Assembly: GCA_013141065.1 (NCBI GenBank)
Contig: JABFRR010000002.1
Coordinates: 89,927-153,926 of the forward strand
Source of the DNA: Bacteriovoracaceae bacterium
GTDB lineage: Bacteria > Bdellovibrionota > Bacteriovoracia > Bacteriovoracales > Bacteriovoracaceae
Reading direction: 5' to 3'
Length of the DNA: 64,000 nt
Shown here: positions 13,026 to 50,826 of the stretch, one piece after another
How the letters are laid out: each line of letters begins with the position of its first letter
Numbering within the stretch: position 1 is the first letter of the stretch
Position numbers and translations under genes: made by a program
The notes under the pieces: generated by a model
Database searches by the model: none
What the model saw: only the letters and a program-made list of their open reading frames with translations
Told to the model about the DNA's origin: nothing

Positions 13026-13136
13026 AAATCTTAAGATAAGTATAATTTATATTCTTTTAGGAATATTTCTCTTGTTTGTTTTAAATTTGCCGTTAACCTT
13101 CTGTAATACATTTTGAATGTCAGGGAAGGAAGTTCG

Positions 13137-16100
13137 ATGAAGTATTTATTTGTCACATTTTTATTTTTTTCATTAAGTTTTCTCAGTAATGCTCAAGATA
13201 ACTGTACTGGTGTTCGTATTAATATGAATTTCTATTACAGTGAGTGTGCACGAATACAAGCTGAATCAATTGAGCAGGGTGCAGAGGGGCTGGTGTTAAC
13301 CCCTACAAAAAAACTCGTATACGTAGATGATAATGGACAATCATACTCGAATATAGAATGCGTTAGTAAATGGGAGCACTTAATATTTGGTTATATTTCT
13401 GAGCCATTTTTAGATACATGTGGTGTGAATCCTCCTGGGCCCAAAATTCAAAACGCAAACTCATGCGGAGTCCCTGGCTCAATAATCGAAGTTTCTAATC
13501 AAGTTGTCGGAGAAGTCATTCCCGTGGTCGGAGCCCCATTTGAATTAATTTATTATTCTAATAAAGTTATTGGCAGAACAGAAGACTATATTTCAAGAAT
13601 TCCATTAACAGCTCAGACTTATTCATCTGCAGTTATACATTTAGGATTACTAATAAAAAATGAAATTGATGCCACAGTCCTTAGTACGAGTTACACCCCT
13701 TCTTCAAATATTATTTATAATTATCAGTGGGATGGGTTCGACGCAAGTTTGAATGAAACGTGGGGAAAAATAAGACGAAATGTTACAATTTCTGAAACTG
13801 CCATGGATTTATCATTTCCACCAGAACCAAGGGACATCTATCTTGGTAATTTGAAAGCTAAAAAATTAGGAATAGGAGCATGGCTTCCGAGTATCTGGCA
13901 TTTTTATGACCAGGTTTCCGGCACACTTTTTAAAGGAGACGGGTCCTATAGAGAAATCAAAGGAAAAGTAATTGGTGCCTACACAGAAGTAGCAGATGAA
14001 TCTGGCCTGGAAGTTTATTATTTTGATAGCACTGGTAAAATCTCTCATACAAAAACAGGACTTACTGGGGCGACGATTTTTACTTTTTTATACGATGGTG
14101 CCGGCAGAATAACGAGCATTACACAAGCATTTGGGCAAGTGACAACTTTTTCTCGAGATGGCTCAGGACAACTTCAGTCAATTGTTGCTCCCAACGGAAA
14201 AGTAACTAATGTGAGTTTTAATACGAATGGATATTTATCAGAAGTTTCTAATCCCAACTCAGAAGACTATCTAATGACCTATTATGGAACGACGGGGGGG
14301 CTACTTCATACATTTACTAAACCTTCAGGTGATGTGACAACTCTTACCTATGATAGTTATGGAAATTTAACAAGTGACACTCACACCAATGGTTTTTCTT
14401 TGACGCTTAGTAAAGTTGACGGTGTCGTTTCTTCAGTGAGTTCTGAAGGTGTCACCAATTTTAGTAAATATACACCATGGGATTTTACAGAAAAGAGCAC
14501 TTCGGCAACAGGCCTAGTTAATTATGTCAGTACAACACCTACGTCAACTGCCATTAGTTCACCTTTTGTAAGTCGCAATTATACTTATGAAGCCGATTTA
14601 CGTTTTGGAGATCAAGTCAAAAATATTTCAAATTCATCTATCTCTAACTATGGAGTCCGAAATACAAGTATCACACGAAGTCTGAATTTAAATACACCAA
14701 ATGACCCTTTTTCAATTGATACATATTCAATTCTAGAAACGGTTGGCCCTTCTGAAACGACTTCAGTTTATTCAGGCAGCAATAATTCTTGGGTGACAAC
14801 TAGTAAGCTTGGAAGAACACTGACGAAAACTTTAGATACTTATGAAAGACCAATTTCCGTGCAGAAAGGAAATTTGACTGCCACAAATTTTACTTACACT
14901 AATGAGTTGTTAACAAAAATTTCTCAAACGTCTGCGAGAGAAACAAGCTTTACATATTTTACAAATAAACTTTTAAAAGATGTGACTAATGCTCTCAATG
15001 AAGTCACTAGCTACACTTATGATAATGCCGAAAGACTTTTAACGAAAACACTACCTGACTTAAGAGTGATTACTTATAGCTATGATTCAAACGGAAATAT
15101 AACTAGTATCACTCCACCGAGTAGACCGGTGCACACTTTAACATACGGGTTGAATGAAAAACTTGTCGATTACACTCCTCCAAGTTTATCCGGTGTGAGC
15201 ATCGTTAAAACAGAATATACTTATGACTTGGATAAGAGGTTAATAAAGATCACTAGACCCGATGGAAAGGAAATTGATTTTACTTATAGTACAGCGAATG
15301 GACTTCTTGATACGACGTCAGGTTTGTTTGGAACTATTACTCATGGTTATAATTTGGGAAGTCTCACAAGTATTGTGGACCAATTTGGATCAACTCTTAA
15401 TATGAATTATACCGGCAATACAGTGACTTCAAGTGATCTCAGTGTCACGGCGGGAGCAGTATATAGTTATTCACGAACTCCAAATGCCACTGCTGGCGAA
15501 AAAACTGCAAGTGAAACGATTAATGGTTTGGGAGCAAGTTCTGTTAATAGAACGGTTGCCTATACTTATAACGATGACGAATTATTAACTGGCGCTGGAA
15601 CAATGAGTCTCGTTTATAATGTACCCAACGGACAATTGACGGCAACGACCTTAACGAATATTAAGGATTACACTTATTATAATTCTTTCGGCGAAGTCAT
15701 TCAGTATGTAGTGAAAAAAGGCACACCCGTTATTTATCAATATGACTTAATCAGAGACAATCTCGGACGAGTCACTAAAAAAACAGAACTCTTAAATGCC
15801 GTGACAACAATTTGGGACTACCTCTACGATAGTGCTGGAAGACTGACTCAGGTAAGTAAAAACTCTGTCGTCGTTGCCACTTATAGTTATGATAATAATA
15901 GTAATCGCACGGGTGGAATAATTCGAGGTGTGAGTACTACTGCCATCTATGATAATCAAGATCGACTGACTACATATAACGGTATTGCTCGAAGCTATAA
16001 TGCCAATGGTGAACTGTTAACACTCGGAACGGCCGTCCTTACTTATGATGTCTTTGGAAATTTAAATCAATTTGTGAATGGTTCAACAAATGTGACTTAC

Positions 16101-16913
16101 GAAGTTGATCCACTTCAAAGAAGATTGGGACGCACGATAAATGGAGTGGGATCATCGCGAACGAGATATATTTACAATCCAGAAAATCAGGTTATCGGTG
16201 AATTAAATTATCAAAATAAATTAGCGAAGACTTTTATTTATGCGACTAAGAGTCACGTGCCAGATTATTATATTGATAGCGGTGGAAATAAGTTTAGAAT
16301 AATAACTGACCATCTTGGATCTGTCAGAATGGTAGTGAACGCGAGCACGGGGACTGTTTCACAGTACATGGAGCACGACGAGTTTGGAGTGGTGTTGACG
16401 GATACAAATCCAGGCTTAACACCATTTGGTTTTGCGGGAGGGCTTTATACTCCACAGTCTGGGCTGGTTAGGTTTGGGGCGCGTGATTATGATCCATTGG
16501 TTGGTCGTTGGTTGAGTAAAGATCCGATTAGGTTTGATGGTGGGGATACTAATTTGTATGGGTATGTTGAAAATGACCCCATAAGTTTTATAGATGAGGA
16601 TGGTTTAAATAGAAATAGACCTGGTGAAAAGAGGGAAGTTGGAGGTAGCGTTGGCGGCGGAGGTGTTATTTATGTTGCACCTAACGGACAAGCAGCTTTC
16701 GCTCCGACAGGCTCATTTGTTTCACCAACAAAGTATGCAGATGGGTTGAAAATTAATACGCCTAATGGTGCTCAAATTCGATTAATGGACCCAAAACCTA
16801 TGAGCCCCAATGGTTATGGTGTAATTAATATAAACGGTAAATTTTATAACTCTGGAGGTCAAGTTGTTCCAAAGAGCTCACCAGAAGCACACATACAACC
16901 AACATGTAAGTAG
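13137..16913 (+). CDS. Rhs/YD-repeat polymorphic protein, full length
   Basis: The track starts at 13113, but GGAAGGAAG precedes the ATG at 13137, which opens directly into a signal peptide (MKYLFVTFLFFSLSFLSNA); this gives 1258 residues. A long array of YD repeats follows (TYDSYGNLTSDT, YTYDNAERLLTKT, YSYDSNGNITSI and others), the sort that builds a beta-cocoon shell. It ends with the Rhs core ([29 protein letters not shown]). After the core comes a 102-residue variable tip rich in Gly and Pro that ends PTCK; I recognise no toxin fold in it. The Sec signal suggests export by Sec rather than by a type VI system. The partner gene follows 9 nt later, with further tips downstream. Confidence 0.9.
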   Translation: MKYLFVTFLFFSLSFLSNAQDNCTGVRINMNFYYSECARIQAESIEQGAEGLVLTPTKKLVYVDDNGQSYSNIECVSKWEHLIFGYISEPFLDTCGVNPPGPKIQNANSCGVPGSIIEVSNQVVGEVIPVVGAPFELIYYSNKVIGRTEDYISRIPLTAQTYSSAVIHLGLLIKNEIDATVLSTSYTPSSNIIYNYQWDGFDASLNETWGKIRRNVTISETAMDLSFPPEPRDIYLGNLKAKKLGIGAWLPSIWHFYDQVSGTLFKGDGSYREIKGKVIGAYTEVADESGLEVYYFDSTGKISHTKTGLTGATIFTFLYDGAGRITSITQAFGQVTTFSRDGSGQLQSIVAPNGKVTNVSFNTNGYLSEVSNPNSEDYLMTYYGTTGGLLHTFTKPSGDVTTLTYDSYGNLTSDTHTNGFSLTLSKVDGVVSSVSSEGVTNFSKYTPWDFTEKSTSATGLVNYVSTTPTSTAISSPFVSRNYTYEADLRFGDQVKNISNSSISNYGVRNTSITRSLNLNTPNDPFSIDTYSILETVGPSETTSVYSGSNNSWVTTSKLGRTLTKTLDTYERPISVQKGNLTATNFTYTNELLTKISQTSARETSFTYFTNKLLKDVTNALNEVTSYTYDNAERLLTKTLPDLRVITYSYDSNGNITSITPPSRPVHTLTYGLNEKLVDYTPPSLSGVSIVKTEYTYDLDKRLIKITRPDGKEIDFTYSTANGLLDTTSGLFGTITHGYNLGSLTSIVDQFGSTLNMNYTGNTVTSSDLSVTAGAVYSYSRTPNATAGEKTASETINGLGASSVNRTVAYTYNDDELLTGAGTMSLVYNVPNGQLTATTLTNIKDYTYYNSFGEVIQYVVKKGTPVIYQYDLIRDNLGRVTKKTELLNAVTTIWDYLYDSAGRLTQVSKNSVVVATYSYDNNSNRTGGIIRGVSTTAIYDNQDRLTTYNGIARSYNANGELLTLGTAVLTYDVFGNLNQFVNGSTNVTYEVDPLQRRLGRTINGVGSSRTRYIYNPENQVIGELNYQNKLAKTFIYATKSHVPDYYIDSGGNKFRIITDHLGSVRMVVNASTGTVSQYMEHDEFGVVLTDTNPGLTPFGFAGGLYTPQSGLVRFGARDYDPLVGRWLSKDPIRFDGGDTNLYGYVENDPISFIDEDGLNRNRPGEKREVGGSVGGGGVIYVAPNGQAAFAPTGSFVSPTKYADGLKINTPNGAQIRLMDPKPMSPNGYGVININGKFYNSGGQVVPKSSPEAHIQPTCK

Positions 16914-20386: not shown

Positions 20387-20875
20387 ATGATGCCACAGTC
20401 GAATAGTCATTATGATCCATCGGTTGGTCGGTGGTTATCAAAAGACCCTATTAGGTTTGCAGCTGGTGATAGTAACCTTTATGGCTATACATTTAATGAT
20501 CCAATTAACTTGATTGATCCTTCTGGCCTGGATGTAACTTTTTATATTGTTCCTCCTTATCATTCTATGATTGGTGTTACTAATCCTGCTTCACCATCAG
20601 GTATGACTTATGGTGAATTTTATCCTCGTGGAAATGATATTGGCTTAACAGGACCAGTCCCAGGAAGAGTAAATATCACTTCAAGTTATCCTTTACCAAA
20701 GATTCCATACAATACAATTCAGACTACTCCAGCACAAGATAGCCAGGTTCTTCAAAACATGAAAAACTTAAGAAACATGGCAAACGAAGGATCATTTGGT
20801 TATTCGGTTACTGAACAAGGTGGTAGCAATTGTTTTGGATTTTCTTCACAAGCTTGCGGAGGAGCGTGTAAATGA
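20387..20875 (+). CDS. orphan Rhs tip with permuted papain-fold (NlpC/P60-like) domain
   Basis: It opens with Rhs core ([38 protein letters not shown]) but has no YD repeats or signal, so it is a silent cassette. The tip after the core resembles a common Rhs-associated domain: YHSMIGV supplies a histidine, then GEFYP, PGRV, TTPAQDSQVLQNM, and finally GGSNCFGFSSQA with the cysteine. The order His then Cys is that of circularly permuted NlpC/P60-type enzymes. It ends GGACK. The start codon in the track is ATG, but independent expression is doubtful; a fusion to the main Rhs gene by recombination is more likely. Confidence 0.7.
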   Translation: MMPQSNSHYDPSVGRWLSKDPIRFAAGDSNLYGYTFNDPINLIDPSGLDVTFYIVPPYHSMIGVTNPASPSGMTYGEFYPRGNDIGLTGPVPGRVNITSSYPLPKIPYNTIQTTPAQDSQVLQNMKNLRNMANEGSFGYSVTEQGGSNCFGFSSQACGGACK

Positions 20876-21319: not shown

Positions 21320-21730
21320 TTGAGGTTTGGGTTGCGTGATTATGATCCATTGGTTGGTCGATGGTTATCAAAAGATCCGATTAGGTTTGATGGTGGTGAT
21401 AGCAATCTTTACGGATATGTATTGCAAGATCCAGTAAATCTAATTGACCCTACCGGTCATATATTTGCCAATGTAGTCGGAGGTATTTTTGGGGCTGCGT
21501 ATACTGCTGCAACTGGTGGTTCTGCTAAAGAAATAATTGGGTATGGAATACTTGGTTTCGCAACTGCTGGTTTAAGTATTCCTGTACAGATTGGTATTGA
21601 ATACTTCTCTAACCCTAATGTTACGGCACCAGATGCTGATAAGGTTCCAAGAGCTCCTAAGCCAAAGAGTCCTTCGTGTGTACCGTCTATGCAATCATGT
21701 CAACCTGCTAAAAATGCTTGTGGAGTCTAA
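21320..21730 (+). CDS. orphan Rhs tip cassette
   Basis: 136 residues from a TTG codon. The core ([38 protein letters not shown]) is nearly the same at the DNA level as the core of the full gene at 16470-16580, which gives the homology for replacing one tip by another. The tip has a glycine-rich pre-toxin segment ([32 protein letters not shown]) and a short cysteine-containing tail ending NACGV. It has no toxin domain I can name. It is probably silent until recombined, since no ribosome binding site or signal peptide is visible. Confidence 0.7.
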
Positions 21731-41891: not shown

Positions 41892-42123
41892 TTTAAAATT
41901 TATAATAAGGATGATTTCAATCAGCTAAGGAGAATTTATTTCGGGTGCTGATAATTCACTGACAAGTGTAAGAAGTAGTTAGGTTATACTGTCATTTTAA
42001 TGACTTAGAACTTGGAAAATACGTCAAATTAGTGACTTAGGCAATGTAAGTTTAGTTATGAGATATCAAGCACATAGTTCACTTGTCCACACAGTAAGTA
42101 CTCTAAAAGGGGCTTTGAAAACT

Positions 42124-42139
42124 TGGCACGATCTCTGCA
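42124..42139 (+). promoter_or_regulatory. sigma-54 (-24/-12) promoter
   Basis: TGGCACGATCTCTGCA matches the RpoN consensus TGGCACG-N4-TTGCW with one mismatch (C for the first T of the -12 element) and the required 10-bp spacing between GG and GC. Predicted start of transcription is G42150. No enhancer-binding protein gene lies in this window. Confidence 0.75.
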
Positions 42140-42149
42140 ATGTATACTA

Positions 42150-42243
42150 GTGTGTGTGGAGAATCTATTAAAAGGATTTTTTTAGACCTCCTGTGAATGT
42201 CTCTCAAAAAGCCCATTGCTGAAATATGCACTGGGCTTTTTTG
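42150..42243 (+). ncRNA. candidate sigma-54-dependent small RNA, about 94 nt
   Basis: Between the predicted sigma-54 start and a strong terminator lie about 94 nt without a convincing open frame. The 5' part can fold (GGAGAATCT with AGACCTCC around an A/T-rich loop) and contains CCTCCT, which could pair with Shine-Dalgarno sequences. The whole stands 180 bp before the MotB-like gene, so it may also be a leader with an attenuator for that operon. It belongs to a 533-bp stretch (41892-42424) that otherwise holds no gene. Confidence 0.55.
42206..42243 (+). terminator. strong intrinsic terminator
   Basis: AAAAAGCCCA, 16-nt loop region, TGGGCTTTTTT. The 10-bp A-T flanked stem and T tract are typical. 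It closes the candidate small RNA. Confidence 0.85.
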
Positions 42244-42424: not shown

Positions 42425-44188
42425 ATGTCTTTTAATTATAAAAAAAATTCACATGATTCAGGTGATAGCTTCTGGACATCTTATTCAGATTTGTTCTTAG
42501 GCTTAAGTTCAATATTCTTACTCCTCTATGTTGTCTCTAGCATGAGGCAGGGGGCAGATACAATTAAGCAACAAGTAGTCAATGAGCAACTTGAAACGCA
42601 AGTCAGTGATTTAAAAAATCAGCTCAAAGCATATGAAGATATAAAGAATCAATACATGAAAGATTCTGCCAGTGATTCTGAAAAAGACGAATATAACGAA
42701 CTCGTTGATAAGCTTTCTTTGTTACAAGAAGAAACACAGTCTGAGAATGATAAGCTTAAAAGACAATTACTCGATAACCAAAAAAAAGAAGTCTCACTTA
42801 ATAAGTACCAACAAATGGTACGTAATATGCTTAATGCCAATAAACTTGCCAAAACAAAAATCAATACTAGGGAAGTTGTCATTGAAGAAAAATCTCAAGT
42901 TATTGCTGAAAAAGAAGATCAAGTTAATGACTTAGAAAAAGAAGTTCAGTTAAATGAAAAAAAGATTGCTGAAGGTGAGCAACAAATTCGTGAAGCTAAA
43001 GGTCAACTTGTAGACAAAGTAAAACAATTAAAAGGATTGTTTAAGGCCAACAAACTTTCTAAAGCTGCAATGGAAAAAAAGATCGCCCAAGCTAACGAAG
43101 AAAATCAAAAAAGACTTAAGGCCTTGGCCGCCGAAAAACAACAGTACCAAGCACAACTTTCTGGTGTTTCTCAAAAACTTCAAGAAGTGGCTTCAGACCT
43201 AGATCAAACCAAAGAACAACTTGATCAAAAAGCAGCTGAAGCAAGTCAGCTCGCAGGCAAGTTAACCCAAACACAAGCAGACGCTGCAGCAAGAATAGCA
43301 GGATTAAAATCAAAATTTGGAGCAGAGCAGGCGCGATTAGCGGCTGATGCAGAATCAAAAATTTCAGGAATGAAAGCGGCTTTCGGCGCCCAACAAGATA
43401 AAATGGCCGCAGATGCAGAAGCCAAAATTGCAGGCATGAAGTCAGCCTTTGGTGATCAACAGGCACGTGAACGAGCTGCTTTTCAAGGAGAGCTTGGCAA
43501 ATTGAAACTAGGTGCTGCTGAAAGAGAAAGAAGAGAAGGAGAGTTTAGAGCTGCTGCTGCTGCCAAAGAAAGAGACATGAATAACCAAATGTCTGGCCTA
43601 CAAGGCCAACTTGCTAAGGCCAAAGCTGAAATTGAAGCTCGCCAAGCAGTTGCCAAAGATATTCGCCAAAGTTTTGCTAGGGCCGGAATTAAAGCAGAAG
43701 TTAATGATGAAACTGGTGAAGTTGTCTTAGATTTTGGACAGTCATATTTTGATAGTGGTTCTGCTCAGTTAAAAAATGAAATGAAAGCCGTCATTGAAAG
43801 AGCAGTTCCAGTCTATGCAAAGTCACTTTTAGGAAATGCGAAAGTTTCTGATAAGGTTTCTGCTGTAGAAATTATCGGATTTGCTTCGCCTACCTATAAA
43901 GGTAGATTTGTTGATCCAAAGAGTAGTTCTAAAGAAGATCAAGAAGCGCTTAAATACAATATGGATTTGAGTTATTCTAGAGCTAAATCAATTTTTAATT
44001 ATATCGTTGATAATCAAAATGATCAGTCACCAACTCAAAAAAGCTTAATGTCATTGATGAAAGTCTCAGGACGAAGCTTTTTAGAAGTTGCAAAAGTTAA
44101 AGATGTTTCACCAAAAGATTTTTGTAAGGTGAATGATTGTAAAAAAGCACAGAGAGTTGTTATTAGATTTAGTATGGATAAGAAATAA
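42425..44188 (+). CDS. MotB-like stator protein with long coiled coil and OmpA-like domain
   Basis: 587 residues. The N-terminus is MotB-like: FWTSYSDLFLGLSSIFLLLY, with an Asp at 22 in the place of the proton-carrying Asp of MotB. Residues about 50-425 are predicted coiled coil, which MotB does not have, and include three 22-residue repeats (see 43277). The C-terminal part is an OmpA-like peptidoglycan-binding domain (VVLDFGQSYFDSGSAQLKN, then NMDLSYSRAKSIFNYI). By family logic it is an ion-driven wall-anchored stator, working with the MotA-like protein 40 nt downstream. No flagellar genes are near. A TATAAT box at 42385 may serve the operon besides the sigma-54 site. Confidence 0.8.
   Translation: MSFNYKKNSHDSGDSFWTSYSDLFLGLSSIFLLLYVVSSMRQGADTIKQQVVNEQLETQVSDLKNQLKAYEDIKNQYMKDSASDSEKDEYNELVDKLSLLQEETQSENDKLKRQLLDNQKKEVSLNKYQQMVRNMLNANKLAKTKINTREVVIEEKSQVIAEKEDQVNDLEKEVQLNEKKIAEGEQQIREAKGQLVDKVKQLKGLFKANKLSKAAMEKKIAQANEENQKRLKALAAEKQQYQAQLSGVSQKLQEVASDLDQTKEQLDQKAAEASQLAGKLTQTQADAAARIAGLKSKFGAEQARLAADAESKISGMKAAFGAQQDKMAADAEAKIAGMKSAFGDQQARERAAFQGELGKLKLGAAERERREGEFRAAAAAKERDMNNQMSGLQGQLAKAKAEIEARQAVAKDIRQSFARAGIKAEVNDETGEVVLDFGQSYFDSGSAQLKNEMKAVIERAVPVYAKSLLGNAKVSDKVSAVEIIGFASPTYKGRFVDPKSSSKEDQEALKYNMDLSYSRAKSIFNYIVDNQNDQSPTQKSLMSLMKVSGRSFLEVAKVKDVSPKDFCKVNDCKKAQRVVIRFSMDKK
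43277..43474 (+). repeat. three tandem 66-bp repeats in the MotB-like gene
   Basis: Units at 43277, 43343 and 43409 each code for 22 residues of the form ADAEAKIAGMKSAFGDQQ. The period of 22 fits two 11-residue (hendecad) turns and so a right-handed rather than a heptad coiled coil. Tandem units may vary in number among strains. Confidence 0.85.
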
Positions 44189-44227
44189 TAATAAGAGAAT
44201 ATCGAGATCGTAATAAGGAGTAAATTT

Positions 44228-45136
44228 ATGTCTGACCAAATTAACACTGCCCATTGGATAACATGGTTTATTACAAGTCTTCCTTGGATTATCGGAGGAG
44301 TCTTTTTCGTGGCAGCGTTTACCAGATACATCATTTTTTACACCGTTCAAAGGCATGAATGGTTTTCTGTAGAATTTGAAAAAAGAGTAAACCGCTTTGT
44401 TGAGTCTCAGAACCCTGGAGATGTAAACGATGTTTCGTTCTATGTTCTTTCTAAAAAATGGTTAGAAAAGACTTATTATGAAATTTTTGAATTGCGTGAC
44501 AGAATGCAAAGAAGAAGATCTGATAAAGTCATGAGACTGGCAGATCGAGTTTTTCTCATAAAGCAAGGATGTGCTTGGCTAGTTAAAGATATTTTGAAGC
44601 AATTAAAGTTTTTGAAGTGGACTCAAGATACACCTAAAATGCTTAACATTACAAAAACTACATTTAATCACAACCCATGCTTTAATCGTATCTTTGGAAT
44701 CTTTCCGATAAACGTTGTGAACGATCTCATTTCAATTCTTCCAGGTTTATTCGTTGTTGGTGGGGTTCTTGGAACATTCCTTGGTATTAGAGGAGGTTTA
44801 ACAGCTCTTGGTAGCATGAACATGGAAAATCTTGATGCCACAAAAAGAGTTATGGATAGCTTCTTAGCTGAAATTGCTCACGCCATGGGGGCATCAATTG
44901 TGGGTATTACTTTTTCTCTAGCAATGCACATAGTGAACACATTGTTTAACCCTGAAAGAGTTTTTGGCTCAATGATTGATAGATTTGAAAGTGCACTAGA
45001 TTTATTATGGTACAGAAGTGACAACAATCGCTTTCCAAGTAACTCAGTGGCATTTGATGAACATAAAGATCCTTCAGAGGCATTGGCAGAAGAAGCTATT
45101 AAATTAGAAACTTCTAAAACGCCTGTCGAGGCATAA
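44228..45136 (+). CDS. MotA/TolQ/ExbB-family proton channel protein
   Basis: 302 residues. There is one membrane span near residues 15-38 (WIIGGVFFVAAFTRYIIFY) and a pair of spans at about 175-245: LPGLFVVGGVLGTFLGIRGG and IAHAMGASIVGITFSLAMHI, the core of the MotA/TolQ/ExbB family. A cytoplasmic helical region of about 130 residues separates them. Members form pentamers around two MotB/TolR-type subunits and are driven by the ion gradient. The MotB-like gene is directly upstream (40 nt) and an FHA-coiled-coil gene 26 nt downstream, so one operon is likely. Confidence 0.85.
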   Translation: MSDQINTAHWITWFITSLPWIIGGVFFVAAFTRYIIFYTVQRHEWFSVEFEKRVNRFVESQNPGDVNDVSFYVLSKKWLEKTYYEIFELRDRMQRRRSDKVMRLADRVFLIKQGCAWLVKDILKQLKFLKWTQDTPKMLNITKTTFNHNPCFNRIFGIFPINVVNDLISILPGLFVVGGVLGTFLGIRGGLTALGSMNMENLDATKRVMDSFLAEIAHAMGASIVGITFSLAMHIVNTLFNPERVFGSMIDRFESALDLLWYRSDNNRFPSNSVAFDEHKDPSEALAEEAIKLETSKTPVEA

Positions 45137-45162
45137 TGATAACTGGGATGTAATGCACGGGT

Positions 45163-46557
45163 ATGAATGATTCAAGTGCTAATTTACTATTAAGAATTTC
45201 AGAAAACGAAAATGAACAGACTCTCTCCCTGAATGGGCGAGAGTTTGTCTTTGGCAGAAGCCAAGACTCTCAAGTTGTATTAAATGACCAGGCGTTCAGT
45301 CGATCTCACTTTAAGTTTACGGTAGTTGGTGAGAAGCTATTTTTATCAGATCTCAAATCTTCAAACGGAACCTATCTTAACGACAAAATAATAAAATCTA
45401 AAGAAACGCCTGTATTTGTTGGTGATGTTATTTATACTGCCAATTCTGATATAAAAATTTCTATACAGTCGATTGAAATCGAGACTCCTTATGATCCTGA
45501 CAATGAACCTACTCAAAGCAGTATAAATCTTGGGAAATTTAATCTCACTCGAACACAATATGATGAAGACGATGAGGCTTTTGAAGAAGAGATCGCACCA
45601 GAATCGGAAGAAATGTCAGATGCTGACAATGAAGAATTCAGTGAAGAATCCAGTGAAGATGAAAGTGAAAATGAGGGAGACTTTAACACGGCCATCTTAA
45701 CTGACAGAATATTTGCAGCCGCCAATCAGCAAGTCAGTGAAATATTGATAAATGCCAATAAAAAAGCGGAAGAGATAATTAAATCAGCACAGCTTGATCA
45801 TGACATAAAAATCAGTGAAAATGAAAAAATTTCAAAGTCAGATTTGCTTTCTAGAAAAAAGATAATTGAACAAGAAATTGAACAATACAGAGAGGCCCTT
45901 GAAGCAGCGACGCTCAAAGCTGTTGAACTCGACAAAACAAAAAAAATCGAAGAGCTAGAACTTGAATTAAGTCAGAGGCAAATAGAAAATGAAAGACAAT
46001 TAGAAGCTGAAGCTAGAAGAAAATCCTCTGAGTTTGATGTTGAATATAATGAAATGCGAGAGCGTTTTTCTCATGAATCTAGAGAGCTTACAGAACAAAA
46101 TCACGAAAAAAGTTTAGAGCTACAAAAACAAATTTCGGTAATAGAGAGTCATCTTCGATTAAAAAATGAAGAATATTTAAAGTTAGATGCAAAATTAGCT
46201 GAAAAAATTCAATCAATCGAAAAAGAAATTGACCTGCAGTTAAAAACTAAGAAAAAAGAACTTCAATTATTGCAATCCAACTTTGATAAAGAACAAGAAA
46301 AACAGCAAAGAGAAATCGACGCAACAATAATTGAAAAGAAAAATGAACTTTCGAGAGTCTCGAAAGAAATGAGTGAGACAATTGCTCATAAACAAAATGA
46401 AATTAATAAAATGATTGCGATGTATGAAGATCAAAAAAAGCTTCAAATACAGATGCTCGAATCAGATTTGGAAAAAAAGAAAATATTTTATGAAGATCAA
46501 ACAAATCAATTAGAAAAAAAGGTTGCGGCTACTCAAGTTGAACTCTACTTTGATTGA
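45163..46557 (+). CDS. FHA domain-coiled-coil protein, 5' part of a split gene
   Basis: A canonical FHA domain is at residues 1-105: FVFGRSQDSQVVL, FSRSHFKF and SSNGTYLN hold the phosphothreonine-binding residues. An acidic linker (EESSEDESENEG) and a long coiled coil to residue 464 follow. The frame then ends (TQVELYFD), but the coiled coil goes on without a break in the +1 frame from 46523. If joined, the product has about 925 residues with FHA, coiled coil, one membrane span and a C-terminal domain, the same plan as the protein at 47938-50826. An A7 run at about 46510-46517 is a likely place for the change. It follows the MotA-like gene by 26 nt. Confidence 0.8.
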   Translation: MNDSSANLLLRISENENEQTLSLNGREFVFGRSQDSQVVLNDQAFSRSHFKFTVVGEKLFLSDLKSSNGTYLNDKIIKSKETPVFVGDVIYTANSDIKISIQSIEIETPYDPDNEPTQSSINLGKFNLTRTQYDEDDEAFEEEIAPESEEMSDADNEEFSEESSEDESENEGDFNTAILTDRIFAAANQQVSEILINANKKAEEIIKSAQLDHDIKISENEKISKSDLLSRKKIIEQEIEQYREALEAATLKAVELDKTKKIEELELELSQRQIENERQLEAEARRKSSEFDVEYNEMRERFSHESRELTEQNHEKSLELQKQISVIESHLRLKNEEYLKLDAKLAEKIQSIEKEIDLQLKTKKKELQLLQSNFDKEQEKQQREIDATIIEKKNELSRVSKEMSETIAHKQNEINKMIAMYEDQKKLQIQMLESDLEKKKIFYEDQTNQLEKKVAATQVELYFD

Positions 46558-47932
46558 AAATTATGACATTAAGAAAAAAGAAGAAATGCAGACCATTTCT
46601 GAACTTAAAGTTAAAAATGAACAGTTGAAAAATAGTGTTTTACGTTATCAAGATGATCTAAAGAAAAAAAATGAAGAAAATCAGCATTTAATTGATGAAA
46701 TTAAAAGTGAAATTGATGGATTGACCAAAAAGAAGAATGAATCGACTAAAGAGGCCATTCAGCTTAAAAAAGAAGCCGATGATCTTTTATTAAAAAATAA
46801 AGAATTAACTGATATTAATATTTCTGTAGAAAATAAAACAAAAGAATCTCGCAACATTAGGGCAGAATTAGAAAAAGAAGCTAAGAGTTTTATTACTCAA
46901 AAAGAAGCTTTAATTCCAGAGATAGAAAATTTAAAGGCACAAGTTAATGAAGCTCGTAAAAAATTAGATGATATCTCAAGGCAGGCAGTTCATATCCAAA
47001 AAAATCATGAAAAAGAAATTGCAGGTCTGGATATTGTTTTCGCTCAAAAGAAAGAAAGTCTCGATGCAGAAATTAGAAAGTTGCGAGATATTGAAGAAAA
47101 GAAAATACAAAATTTAGTACTTCAAGAAATTAACCAAATTAACAAACTGAAAGAAGAATCACTAAAGATGGTTCTAGACTTAGAAGATTCAATTACAAAA
47201 GAATTGGTTAATTCTACGATGACAGTATTTGCCAATACGATTGGTGCTTCGAAATTTAAAGAAATAGCTCCTCATTATGAACAAAGCATCAGGACCTCTC
47301 TTCAAGGTGGAGTTCTCAAGTTATTAAAGAATGAATTAAATCCTTCAAAATCACCAAATGCTAAAAAATTGTCGTCTAATCCTAGAGTGATGAAACCGGT
47401 GATTATAAGTTCACTTATCAGTGCATTTATATTTGGGGTCATTCCTCATATTTATAGACAAATTGAAGATCAAAATGATCCTGTACGTCTCGAGATGGCA
47501 GCTAGAGCGCGTGCAGCCGCCATTGTTCCGAAGCGAGTTTTTACACCGATGAAAGTTGCTGAATTAAAGCCGACATTTGTTGATGCTGTCATTTACACTG
47601 AGGGCTTTACCGACGTTTATGCTAAAGAAGAATTTCGCTCTGAACTTATGAAAAAGGGAAGTGAGTATCTTTATAAACAATGGCAAATAGACGAAGAAAA
47701 ATCGATTGAGGCCTACGCAATGATTTTTTCAATGATTGATCTATTAAAAGATAAAACATTGAAAGTTGATCCTGATAATGAACAAAAAGACATCCAGAAA
47801 ATGGTTCAAATTGAAAAAGAGACATTAAAAAAGTTAGAAAAAATATTGGGTAATGAAGTCAGACTAGAAGCTGCCCTTAAATTTCAAACTCGCTACTATA
47901 AAGAATTTATTGGTGATACTTCGGTAGAATAA
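46523..47932 (+). CDS. coiled-coil membrane protein, 3' part of the split FHA gene
   Basis: 469 residues in the track, from an internal TTG. The first 230 residues are coiled coil continuing that of the preceding frame. One membrane span follows (PVIISSLISAFIFGVIPHIY at about 292-311), then about 150 residues that are mostly helical (EGFTDVYAKEEFRSELMKKG) and by topology would be periplasmic if the FHA part is cytoplasmic. I recognise no family in that last domain. No ribosome binding site supports an independent start. It ends 5 bp from the stop of the convergent FHA gene. Confidence 0.7.
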   Translation: MRLLKLNSTLIENYDIKKKEEMQTISELKVKNEQLKNSVLRYQDDLKKKNEENQHLIDEIKSEIDGLTKKKNESTKEAIQLKKEADDLLLKNKELTDINISVENKTKESRNIRAELEKEAKSFITQKEALIPEIENLKAQVNEARKKLDDISRQAVHIQKNHEKEIAGLDIVFAQKKESLDAEIRKLRDIEEKKIQNLVLQEINQINKLKEESLKMVLDLEDSITKELVNSTMTVFANTIGASKFKEIAPHYEQSIRTSLQGGVLKLLKNELNPSKSPNAKKLSSNPRVMKPVIISSLISAFIFGVIPHIYRQIEDQNDPVRLEMAARARAAAIVPKRVFTPMKVAELKPTFVDAVIYTEGFTDVYAKEEFRSELMKKGSEYLYKQWQIDEEKSIEAYAMIFSMIDLLKDKTLKVDPDNEQKDIQKMVQIEKETLKKLEKILGNEVRLEAALKFQTRYYKEFIGDTSVE

Positions 47933-47937
47933 TTATG

Positions 47938-50826
47938 TTATGGTGCTATGAGTGCTTTAATTTCTTTAAATGCACTTTCATAAAAATTCGGATACTCGAC
48001 TATTGAATAAACAATGCCAGCAAGCAGACAAAAAATGAGTGTATTTTTCTTAATCGCTTGAAAGTTAATTTTTCGTCTCGGAAAGAGTGTACGCATGTCA
48101 ACATTCTTTCTTTCGATTTCACCTTGAATGGCCTCTAAAACGACATTTTTAAATTTAAAATGTAACTTTTTAATCAAAGTTTCTGTTAATGGTAAATTTT
48201 TAGATTTTGTAATTTCTAAAGTGAGATGATCTTGAGCAATCAGTGCAAATGCCTCTGCCATTTCATGATTTTTCTTGTCAGCGTACCGCTCAATAGTTTC
48301 TTTCATCTCTTGGAATTTTTCTTCTTCTACTCTTTTTAATTCAGACATTTCGAGTTGATACCTTTCTTTACTTCGTTGGGCATCTAATTCAATGTCTTTA
48401 GCTCTTTTTTCAGCACGTAAAATAGTTTCACGAATCTTTTTTTCATTGGCGAGGTAATTGTCATTCATTAAACTATCTGATTTTCGAATTGATTCTTCCA
48501 AACTTCGTTTTAGTTTTTGATTTTCCTCGCTCTCGAGTTTATTTTTTTCTTTTTCTAGGATCACTTCATTTTTTAGTTTTTGAACTTCGGCCATTCCCCT
48601 TTGATGGAAACTGTGTGATTCCTTCAGCATGGCCTCTTTTTGTTTTGCAATATCAATTACTAATTGCTCTTTTTTCTTTTGTATATCGAGTTTTGTTTGG
48701 TTAGTGGCATTGAATATAGTTTCTTTCGCTTGATTTTGAATTGCGAGGGCCTCTTTTTTTGCATCATTTATTATTGTTTCGGCCTGCTTATTAGCAGCAA
48801 CAACAATTTCATGCCCTTTCTTCTGAGCATTTTCTTCTATCCAGTTGAGTTCACTTTTAATAGTTTCTTTTTGTTTGTTAAGTTTAGCTAATTCTTCAAG
48901 ATGAATAAGTTTTTCTTTTTCGTTTTCTTCATGGGCAGTTTTAAGCACTTCCTCTCGTTTTAAAAGAGAATCTTCTTCTGCTTTAATTTTCTTCTGATCT
49001 ATGTCTAAAAGAGCCGCTTTAATCTTTTTAATTTCTATTTGATTCTTTTGGTTTGCTTCCAATAAGATTTCTTTACTTTGAGCTTGCGCCTCCAAAATAA
49101 TGGTCTCAGCCTCTTTTTGAGTCTTTTCCCTCATTTCGTTTATTAACTTTTTCTCTTTTTCTATCGTTTCAAATTCTTGCTTAAAGTTTTCACTTTTACT
49201 CTCAATTTCTTTTGATACTTGAATGAGTGTTAATTGAATTCTCTCTAATTCAGATTTTTTTTCATTTTGGAGTTGGTCAATTTTATCAGCTTCAAATTGC
49301 AATTTTTTGCAATTTATATCAAGCTGGTTAATTTCTCTTTCAATTTTATTTTTCTCATTTCTAAGTTCTTGAATTTCTGGTTGTAGAGCATCTTTAGTCG
49401 CGAGAGCTTTTTCGGCCTCTGCAAACATTTTTGCTGTTTTTCCTTGAGCTTCATAAAACTCAGTTTCAATTTTCGCCTTAACTTTTCTTTCTTCTATCGC
49501 TAGTTCTTCTAGTTTTAGTTCACCACTTCGCTTAAGTGTTTGATGATAGCTTTTAACTTCATCGAGATTTTGATTTTCATTTCTTATTCGTTCTTTAATC
49601 GCCTCGACATCATCATTAAATTGTTTAATTTTTTGATTGTGCCTAGATTCTGCATTTTTAAGACTTGCTAGCCGCTCTTCAAAGGTTCTTAAAAGCTTAT
49701 CTTGCCTTGATTTTATCTCATGCGTTTCTTTTTCAGTTTTATTAAGTTCTTCATTGGCACCAAAAAGCAATTCTTCTAGTGCTTTTTTTCGAGTTTCTTC
49801 TTCATAAGAAATCCGATCTAATATTTCTTTTTCTTTTAATTGAACACTCTCTAGAATTTCTTTTTCAATTGATTTGGCATTTTCTATCATCTCTAATTCA
49901 GAGAGTTTGGCAGTGTCGAGCATCTTTTTTTCTACGGCCCTAGCATTTCCAATAATTTCTCTTTCAAATGACTTTGCATTTTCAATTATTTCGTGTTCAT
50001 GGGCCATGGCCCTTTCTATTATTTCTTTTTCTTTCGCTCTGGCTTTCTTTAAAATTAAATTTTCTTCTTCTAATGCATGCTTTTTAATTTGCTGAGCTTT
50101 TTTAAGAGAATTTTCTTTAAGTTTGAGTGATTCAGTACTAATAAATTGCTTGACCTGATTGTCTAGACTAGGGGCATCTTCAGGCATAACAGCTTTAAGT
50201 TTTGGTGCAGCTTTCTTTTCGGTTGCAGTTGAAGCCGGAGTCGGAGTCGGAGGTGGATTTTTGTAAGTCACTATTGAGCTGGATCCATTGGCAACTTTTA
50301 GCTCGACGACTTCAGGCATATTTGATTTTGCCATTGGTTTAACGAATGCCTTTACATTATCTTTTACAATGACTTTGGTACTTGCCTGGACATTGGTCTT
50401 TGCCAGTTCTTTGGTCACAACTTTGTTTTTATCTTTTATCAATTTTGTGGCATCAAAACTAAGTGTTCTATCTGATTGTTTGACATCGGCCAGTGGTTTT
50501 TTTTCAATCTGAGTTTCCGCGATGATACTTACTGAAGGTCCATTTTTTCCACCTAAGAGTAAGATGTCGTTGGCATGAAAAATTTCGGGTTTGCCTTTTA
50601 TGAGTTTGACATCATTTAAGATTGTGCCATTGGTAGATCCCATCTCTTCAACAACAATGCCATTATTATTTTTTGAAATTTTAAGATGATTTCTACTGAT
50701 GAGTTCGTGATTAAAAATAATGTTACAGTCTCGGCCTCGACCGATGACACATTGATCCCCATCAACTTTATGCGAAGTTAATTTTCCTTTTTCGTTAATG
50801 GTTATTTTAAATCTATTTTTACTCAT
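47938..50826 (-). CDS. FHA domain-long coiled-coil-membrane protein
   Basis: 962 residues. The FHA domain is at residues 1-100 (VIGRGRDCNIIF, ISRNHLKIS, GSTNGTILN, all binding positions kept). A Lys/Ala/Pro-rich linker follows to about 220 and includes a PPPTPTPAS stretch. Then about 600 residues of coiled coil have the style of F-type ATPase subunit b or DivIVA proteins (EREIIGNARAVEKKMLDTAK and many similar lines). A single membrane span lies near the C-terminus (TLIFCLLAGIVYSIVEYPNF). Together this is a scaffold about 90 nm long tied to the inner membrane with a phosphopeptide-reading head. It is convergent with, and has the same plan as, the split FHA gene. Confidence 0.85.
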   Translation of the reverse strand: MSKNRFKITINEKGKLTSHKVDGDQCVIGRGRDCNIIFNHELISRNHLKISKNNNGIVVEEMGSTNGTILNDVKLIKGKPEIFHANDILLLGGKNGPSVSIIAETQIEKKPLADVKQSDRTLSFDATKLIKDKNKVVTKELAKTNVQASTKVIVKDNVKAFVKPMAKSNMPEVVELKVANGSSSIVTYKNPPPTPTPASTATEKKAAPKLKAVMPEDAPSLDNQVKQFISTESLKLKENSLKKAQQIKKHALEEENLILKKARAKEKEIIERAMAHEHEIIENAKSFEREIIGNARAVEKKMLDTAKLSELEMIENAKSIEKEILESVQLKEKEILDRISYEEETRKKALEELLFGANEELNKTEKETHEIKSRQDKLLRTFEERLASLKNAESRHNQKIKQFNDDVEAIKERIRNENQNLDEVKSYHQTLKRSGELKLEELAIEERKVKAKIETEFYEAQGKTAKMFAEAEKALATKDALQPEIQELRNEKNKIEREINQLDINCKKLQFEADKIDQLQNEKKSELERIQLTLIQVSKEIESKSENFKQEFETIEKEKKLINEMREKTQKEAETIILEAQAQSKEILLEANQKNQIEIKKIKAALLDIDQKKIKAEEDSLLKREEVLKTAHEENEKEKLIHLEELAKLNKQKETIKSELNWIEENAQKKGHEIVVAANKQAETIINDAKKEALAIQNQAKETIFNATNQTKLDIQKKKEQLVIDIAKQKEAMLKESHSFHQRGMAEVQKLKNEVILEKEKNKLESEENQKLKRSLEESIRKSDSLMNDNYLANEKKIRETILRAEKRAKDIELDAQRSKERYQLEMSELKRVEEEKFQEMKETIERYADKKNHEMAEAFALIAQDHLTLEITKSKNLPLTETLIKKLHFKFKNVVLEAIQGEIERKNVDMRTLFPRRKINFQAIKKNTLIFCLLAGIVYSIVEYPNFYESAFKEIKALIAP

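Follow-up and report, generated by a model that had tools for sequence, protein, structure and literature searches.

The window, i.e., the whole 64,000-nucleotide stretch of DNA analysed, comes from a member of the Bacteriovoracaceae, a family of relatives of predatory bacteria. On its forward strand, a sigma-54 promoter, TTGGCACGATCTCTGC (42123-42138, with the -24 GG and the -12 GC), precedes a predicted transcript of ~94 nt (42150-42243), whose 5' end at ~42150 was placed from the promoter spacing. The RNA is predicted to begin with a single-stranded segment, GUGUGUGU (42150-42157), followed by hairpin 1 (42158-42191), whose apical loop presents a GGA in an AAAGGA context (42174-42176) and is a candidate CsrA site. 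A single-stranded linker carrying the motif GUCUCUC (42199-42205) leads to an intrinsic terminator (42206-42243), in which a strong hairpin at 42206-42241 (MFE -25.9 kcal/mol, z -3.4) is followed by a U-run. On the same strand, ahead of the promoter, lie two upstream activating sites: GTCATTTTAATGAC (41991-42004), a GTCA-N6-TGAC palindrome, and GTCAAATTAGTGAC (42023-42036), 32 bp from the first, that is, about three helical turns.

A DNA search recovered the element, at 76-93% identity, from 13/13 same-genus relatives, whose flanks have diverged. A covariance model of the transcript alone (17 sequences, no promoter included) matched 97 of the 129 Bacteriovoracaceae genomes, usually in single copy; the carriers represent 33 of the 48 genera and 62 of the 73 good-quality genomes of the family. 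The same search in a phylum sample of 369 genomes returned no match outside the Bacteriovoracaceae, and of the 58 matches of a separate, independent pattern scan, which covered 84,980 species genomes, nearly all were titled Bacteriovoracaceae, Halobacteriovoraceae, Bacteriovorax, Halobacteriovorax or related groups. No Rfam family matched the sRNA at either gathering or permissive thresholds. The sRNA was undetected in 32/129 family genomes, where a promoter-plus-UGUGUGUG pattern was likewise absent, a pattern that also misses a known divergent carrier (G081). In two genomes the sRNA was seen twice, or with a further partial copy (G047, loci L057 and L072; G012, loci L011 and L020); these extra copies may be artefacts, as G047 has 9% contamination and L020 lies at a contig end.

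The -24/-12 element is retained in all 64 homologues for which upstream DNA was available, with TGG and TG invariant and the -12 C present in 63 of them, and the gap from this C to the UGUGUG of the transcript measures 10-15 nt throughout. The loss of the element in close relatives, which the initial annotation had named as a finding that would speak against its reading, was therefore not observed. The window genome encodes sigma-54 itself (PF04552, E 1.3e-62), and the pattern TTGGCA-N7-TGC occurs in it 37 times vs 4 for the reversed control pattern, from which we conclude that promoters of this type are probably in use.

When upstream regions were scanned without bias for every 4-mer palindrome, GTCA-N6-TGAC ranked first, with occurrences in 40 of 52 regions against 0.6 in shuffles. 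Upstream of the sRNA it is perfect in 52/64 homologues and has at most one mismatch in 58/64, often as two copies set 31-33 bp apart, again about three helical turns. The tandem pair was found solely before the sRNA in 13/13 same-genus genomes; in G012 it occurs at two places, one of them adjoining the partial sRNA copy at the contig end. When 30 sigma-54-like sites were examined, only the sRNA promoter had a perfect GTCA-N6-TGAC upstream, and the other 29 were without one.

In the 65-row model-fitted alignment the stems were out of register, and RNAalifold returned no structure for this reason; pairing was therefore assessed in 54 distinct homologues by counting from the GGA outwards. The seven levels of hairpin 1 next to the loop contain 95% canonical pairs, a share that drops to 79% or less if one side is shifted, and several levels show two-sided changes in several lineages, i.e., the stem covaries. 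The AGGA loop is present in 54/54 distinct homologues and apical in 53/54 predicted folds, with the AAAGGA context in 49/54. Both single strands are similarly constrained: GUGUGUGU is kept in every distinct homologue, GUGUGUG (model positions 3-9, at the 5' end) is found in 54/54, with an invariant UGUGUG predicted to be unpaired, and the GUCUCUC linker, also predicted unpaired, is found in 48/54. The terminator hairpin is likewise present in 54/54, while its stem sequence varies freely across genera. In two loci (L084:4001-4089 and L088:4001-4090) the apical stem has been rebuilt as AAUC...GAUU with the AGGA loop kept, a natural compensatory experiment.

The initial annotation had proposed a sigma-54 promoter driving a short, terminated RNA, to be judged by the conservation of promoter, hairpins and terminator and by covariance in relatives; all of these are kept among the family homologues, and the upstream sites in most of them. 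It had also suggested that a CCTCCT stretch could pair with Shine-Dalgarno sequences, a suggestion that did not hold: positions 42187-42192 belong to the paired 3' side of hairpin 1, and an exposed anti-Shine-Dalgarno was rejected, given that other genera swap the sequence and retain the pairing. Its failure to find a convincing ORF was confirmed. A single short frame, MCVENLLKGFF, begins near the 5' end within the window's genus, but a TGA breaks it in the same-genus homologue G007, where a compensatory change preserves the hairpin. AUGUCUCU would provide a possible start in 44/54 homologues but is absent in 10/54, and what lies downstream is the terminator, free in sequence and length. A coding function was rejected, as reading frames are not conserved among homologues, and it is extremely unlikely that the unit encodes a small protein.

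The surroundings of the sRNA bear on a second proposal of the initial annotation, which left open whether the RNA was a sigma-54-dependent sRNA or an attenuated leader of the stator operon downstream; the first half is strongly supported, while the second is contradicted by synteny. The next gene in the window (42425) does share its strand with the sRNA, but this stator-like gene is missing from the relatives' loci, so that there is no conserved same-strand linkage. Elsewhere, one recurring downstream neighbour is instead an arginase-family gene in opposite orientation, and a terminator hairpin is invariably there. In 44 loci the sRNA has a homologue of the window's arginase-family gene nearby, oriented oppositely wherever this was checked. 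A recurring neighbourhood comprises sdh genes/rimK on one side and, on the other, the arginase-family gene, an MBL-like hydrolase and sucCD; the hydrolase, sdh and suc names were assigned by reading the sequences and not by a family search. It is thus most improbable that the RNA serves as a leader or riboregulator of a downstream stator-like operon.

In the window, the cluster at 42425-50826 separates the sRNA from the arginase-family gene, which at other loci is often found next to it. The cluster encodes a coiled-coil OmpA-like protein, FHA-domain coiled-coil proteins and a 302-aa protein that has no Pfam match and may be MotA-like. Further away, a large RHS/YD-repeat-like protein (13113-16913) is followed by shorter ORFs (20387-20875 and 21320-21730), which repeat its conserved end motif with different tails and resemble orphan RHS tips.

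As read from the sequence, the gene unit, its promoter, upstream sites, structure, terminator and conservation are established, and we consider it highly probable that 42150-42243 is an autonomous sigma-54-dependent sRNA gene, its transcription being deduced from these signals.

An activator encoded beside the sRNA was considered and rejected: no GAFTGA-type ORF, i.e., no enhancer-binding protein adjoining the sRNA, was found in the sRNA loci examined. The enhancer-binding proteins of the window genome include a response regulator with receiver, AAA+ and HTH_8 domains, whose gene lies near flgB, flgC, fliE and fliF. Among PDB structures, FleQ matches its HTH region best (E 2.6e-9), the two having RTTL-EKM in common, and the C-terminal region of the regulator was found in 123 of the 129 family genomes, including genomes without the sRNA. 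The consensus proposed for FleQ in P. aeruginosa is GTCaNTAAAtTGAC (PMC6120874), and the same study reports it to be unreliable in P. fluorescens (PMC6120874). GTCA-N6-TGAC fits the P. aeruginosa consensus and a protein with a FleQ-like HTH is present, which suggests that this response regulator is the likeliest activator of the sRNA, although a match between protein and site is no proof. The candidate carries a receiver domain, and identity with FleQ itself is not claimed. From a flagellar activator more target promoters would be expected, yet in the 13 same-genus genomes the tandem site was found only at the sRNA, and the 29 other sigma-54-like sites lack a perfect palindrome upstream; the regulon and target searches across the genome were pattern searches only. 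In genome C13, a second EBP-like HTH_8 protein (L259:16030-16980), which the GAFTGA-type motif does not match, is encoded directly upstream of flgB-flgC-fliE-fliF, and a sigma-54-like site (C13:76174) lies inside the gene preceding it.

With regard to a partner of the RNA, CsrA was present in 24/24 genomes tested, including family genomes without the sRNA, and Hfq was detected in 0/24. The window genome has csrA followed by fliW, beside flgK-flgL. In Campylobacter jejuni, a FliW organism, CsrA selects (C/A)A(A/T)GGA, with AAGGA in hairpin loops (PMC4894983). The sRNA is predicted to present such a GGA in a hairpin loop in 53/54 distinct homologues; several GGA sites, however, are not a general property of the family, the number per RNA being 1 in 13, 2 in 32 and 3 in 9 of the 54 distinct homologues. 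The upstream GGA occurs in 40/54 and is paired. As only one GGA is universal and the upstream one is paired, the RNA does not fit a classical multi-site CsrA sponge.

Considering that: (i) CsrA and FliW are present, (ii) Hfq was undetected, and (iii) the AAAGGA loop resembles the C. jejuni CsrA site, we favour a CsrA-binding RNA. We propose that sigma-54 RNA polymerase would be activated by an enhancer-binding protein, most likely the response regulator encoded beside flgBC-fliEF, bound to the tandem GTCA-N6-TGAC sites, which lie ~115-160 bp ahead of the predicted start. The transcript would end at its own terminator and fold so that the hairpin loop displays AAAGGA between two conserved single strands; it would bind to CsrA, which it may titrate or by which it may be held, and flagellar sigma-54 output would in this way be coupled to CsrA-controlled translation. 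Such an action would probably serve flagellar control. For the full chain, from FleQ-like activator and sigma-54 to a CsrA-binding sRNA, in which expression, activator, partner and process are all deduced, we put the chances at about even. The proposal leaves GUGUGUG and GUCUCUC, which are about as conserved as the loop, unaccounted for, and both CsrA and the activator occur also in family genomes that lack the sRNA.

The near-invariance of these two single strands, predicted unpaired and seed-like, is what speaks for the main rival, namely a sigma-54-dependent, trans-acting sRNA that would pair with mRNAs independently of Hfq through GUGUGUGU and/or GUCUCUC, with the hairpin serving structure or stability. 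Base-pairing is the mode of action of known sigma-54 sRNAs, for example Qrr. A pattern search of same-genus genomes for mRNA targets complementary to both segments in order found, however, none that was conserved across the genus, and only one site shared by three related genomes; pairing would also have to proceed with Hfq undetected, and it leaves the invariance of the AGGA loop unexplained. We regard this explanation as possible, if less probable than CsrA binding. The sequence GAGAGACGATTTAA(C/T)TATGAGTACACAC, complementary to both single strands of the sRNA, was seen in L274, L276 and L277, from three same-genus genomes (G009, G012, G007). That three elements are conserved family-wide, while the stems and terminator are free, is typical of protein-binding RNAs, and a dedicated, as yet unrecognised RNA-binding protein other than CsrA might read the three jointly and hold the sRNA as a structural or sensor RNA. 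No candidate for such a protein was found, and the AAAGGA loop is already an expected site of CsrA, which is present; we consider this reading rather unlikely.

Small RNAs transcribed by sigma-54 from promoters with enhancer sites are a kind already known (Qrr; PMC10162802). The Qrr RNAs of the Vibrionaceae, controlled by LuxO/SypG and sigma-54 (PMC10162802), resemble the RNA described here in being stand-alone sRNAs with a TGGCA-N7-TGC promoter, two palindromic upstream activating sites and a response-regulator enhancer-binding protein, here a candidate. They differ in the sites themselves, TTGCAWWWTGCAA in Qrr and GTCA-N6-TGAC here, in the conserved RNA segments, and in that Hfq was undetected here; the Rfam Qrr model (RF00378) scored the sRNA at 17.9 bits, below its gathering threshold of 50 bits. 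Further sigma-54 sRNAs are CrcZ/CrcY and GlmY of Pseudomonas and Enterobacteria, of which CrcZ sequesters an RNA-binding protein. These too are sRNA genes under a sigma-54 activator, but no Rfam family matches the present RNA. The CsrB/RsmZ-type sRNAs and the C. jejuni CsrA-FliW network (PMC4894983) share with it AAGGA in a hairpin loop, CsrA together with FliW, and a flagellar context; CsrB/RsmZ-type RNAs, however, carry many GGAs whereas one is universal here, and the CsrA antagonists described in C. jejuni are FliW and the flaA mRNA, with no sRNA among them (PMC4894983). The C. jejuni small RNAs CJnc230 and CJnc170 are likewise tied to the RpoN/FliA flagellar hierarchy (PMC11187230), but CJnc230 is processed from the flgE mRNA (PMC11187230) and is not a stand-alone gene with enhancer sites. 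Non-coding RNAs of a predatory relative, the attack-phase RNAs of Bdellovibrio, include merRNA (PMC3627812), which is a c-di-GMP riboswitch RNA reported only from the Bdellovibrio lineage (PMC3627812), whereas the sRNA described here was undetected outside the Bacteriovoracaceae.

Judged against Rfam and open-licence papers, there appears to be no precedent for the sRNA family, for the GTCA-N6-TGAC promoter in front of it or for its setting in bacteria where Hfq goes undetected: no report of the sRNA was found in the open-licence literature, and the small-RNA work found for the group concerns Bdellovibrio. A bolder proposal, which we regard as doubtful, is that the family possesses a CsrA-antagonist sRNA in a FliW-type system outside the Gammaproteobacteria. 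A FleQ-like regulator of the flagellar cluster would devote a tandem-site sigma-54 promoter to a single family-wide sRNA, which would control CsrA through one AAAGGA hairpin and might time the switch between motile and non-motile states without Hfq.

The sRNA occurs in 33 Bacteriovoracaceae genera with unusually clear control signals, which makes its activator, sigma factor and RNA partner directly testable. Binding to CsrA, if it occurs, would bear on the question of how FliW-type bacteria devoid of CsrB/RsmZ-type sRNAs control CsrA; and, if the proposed chain is true, a small RNA would be tied to sigma-54 flagellar control in bacteria where Hfq goes undetected.
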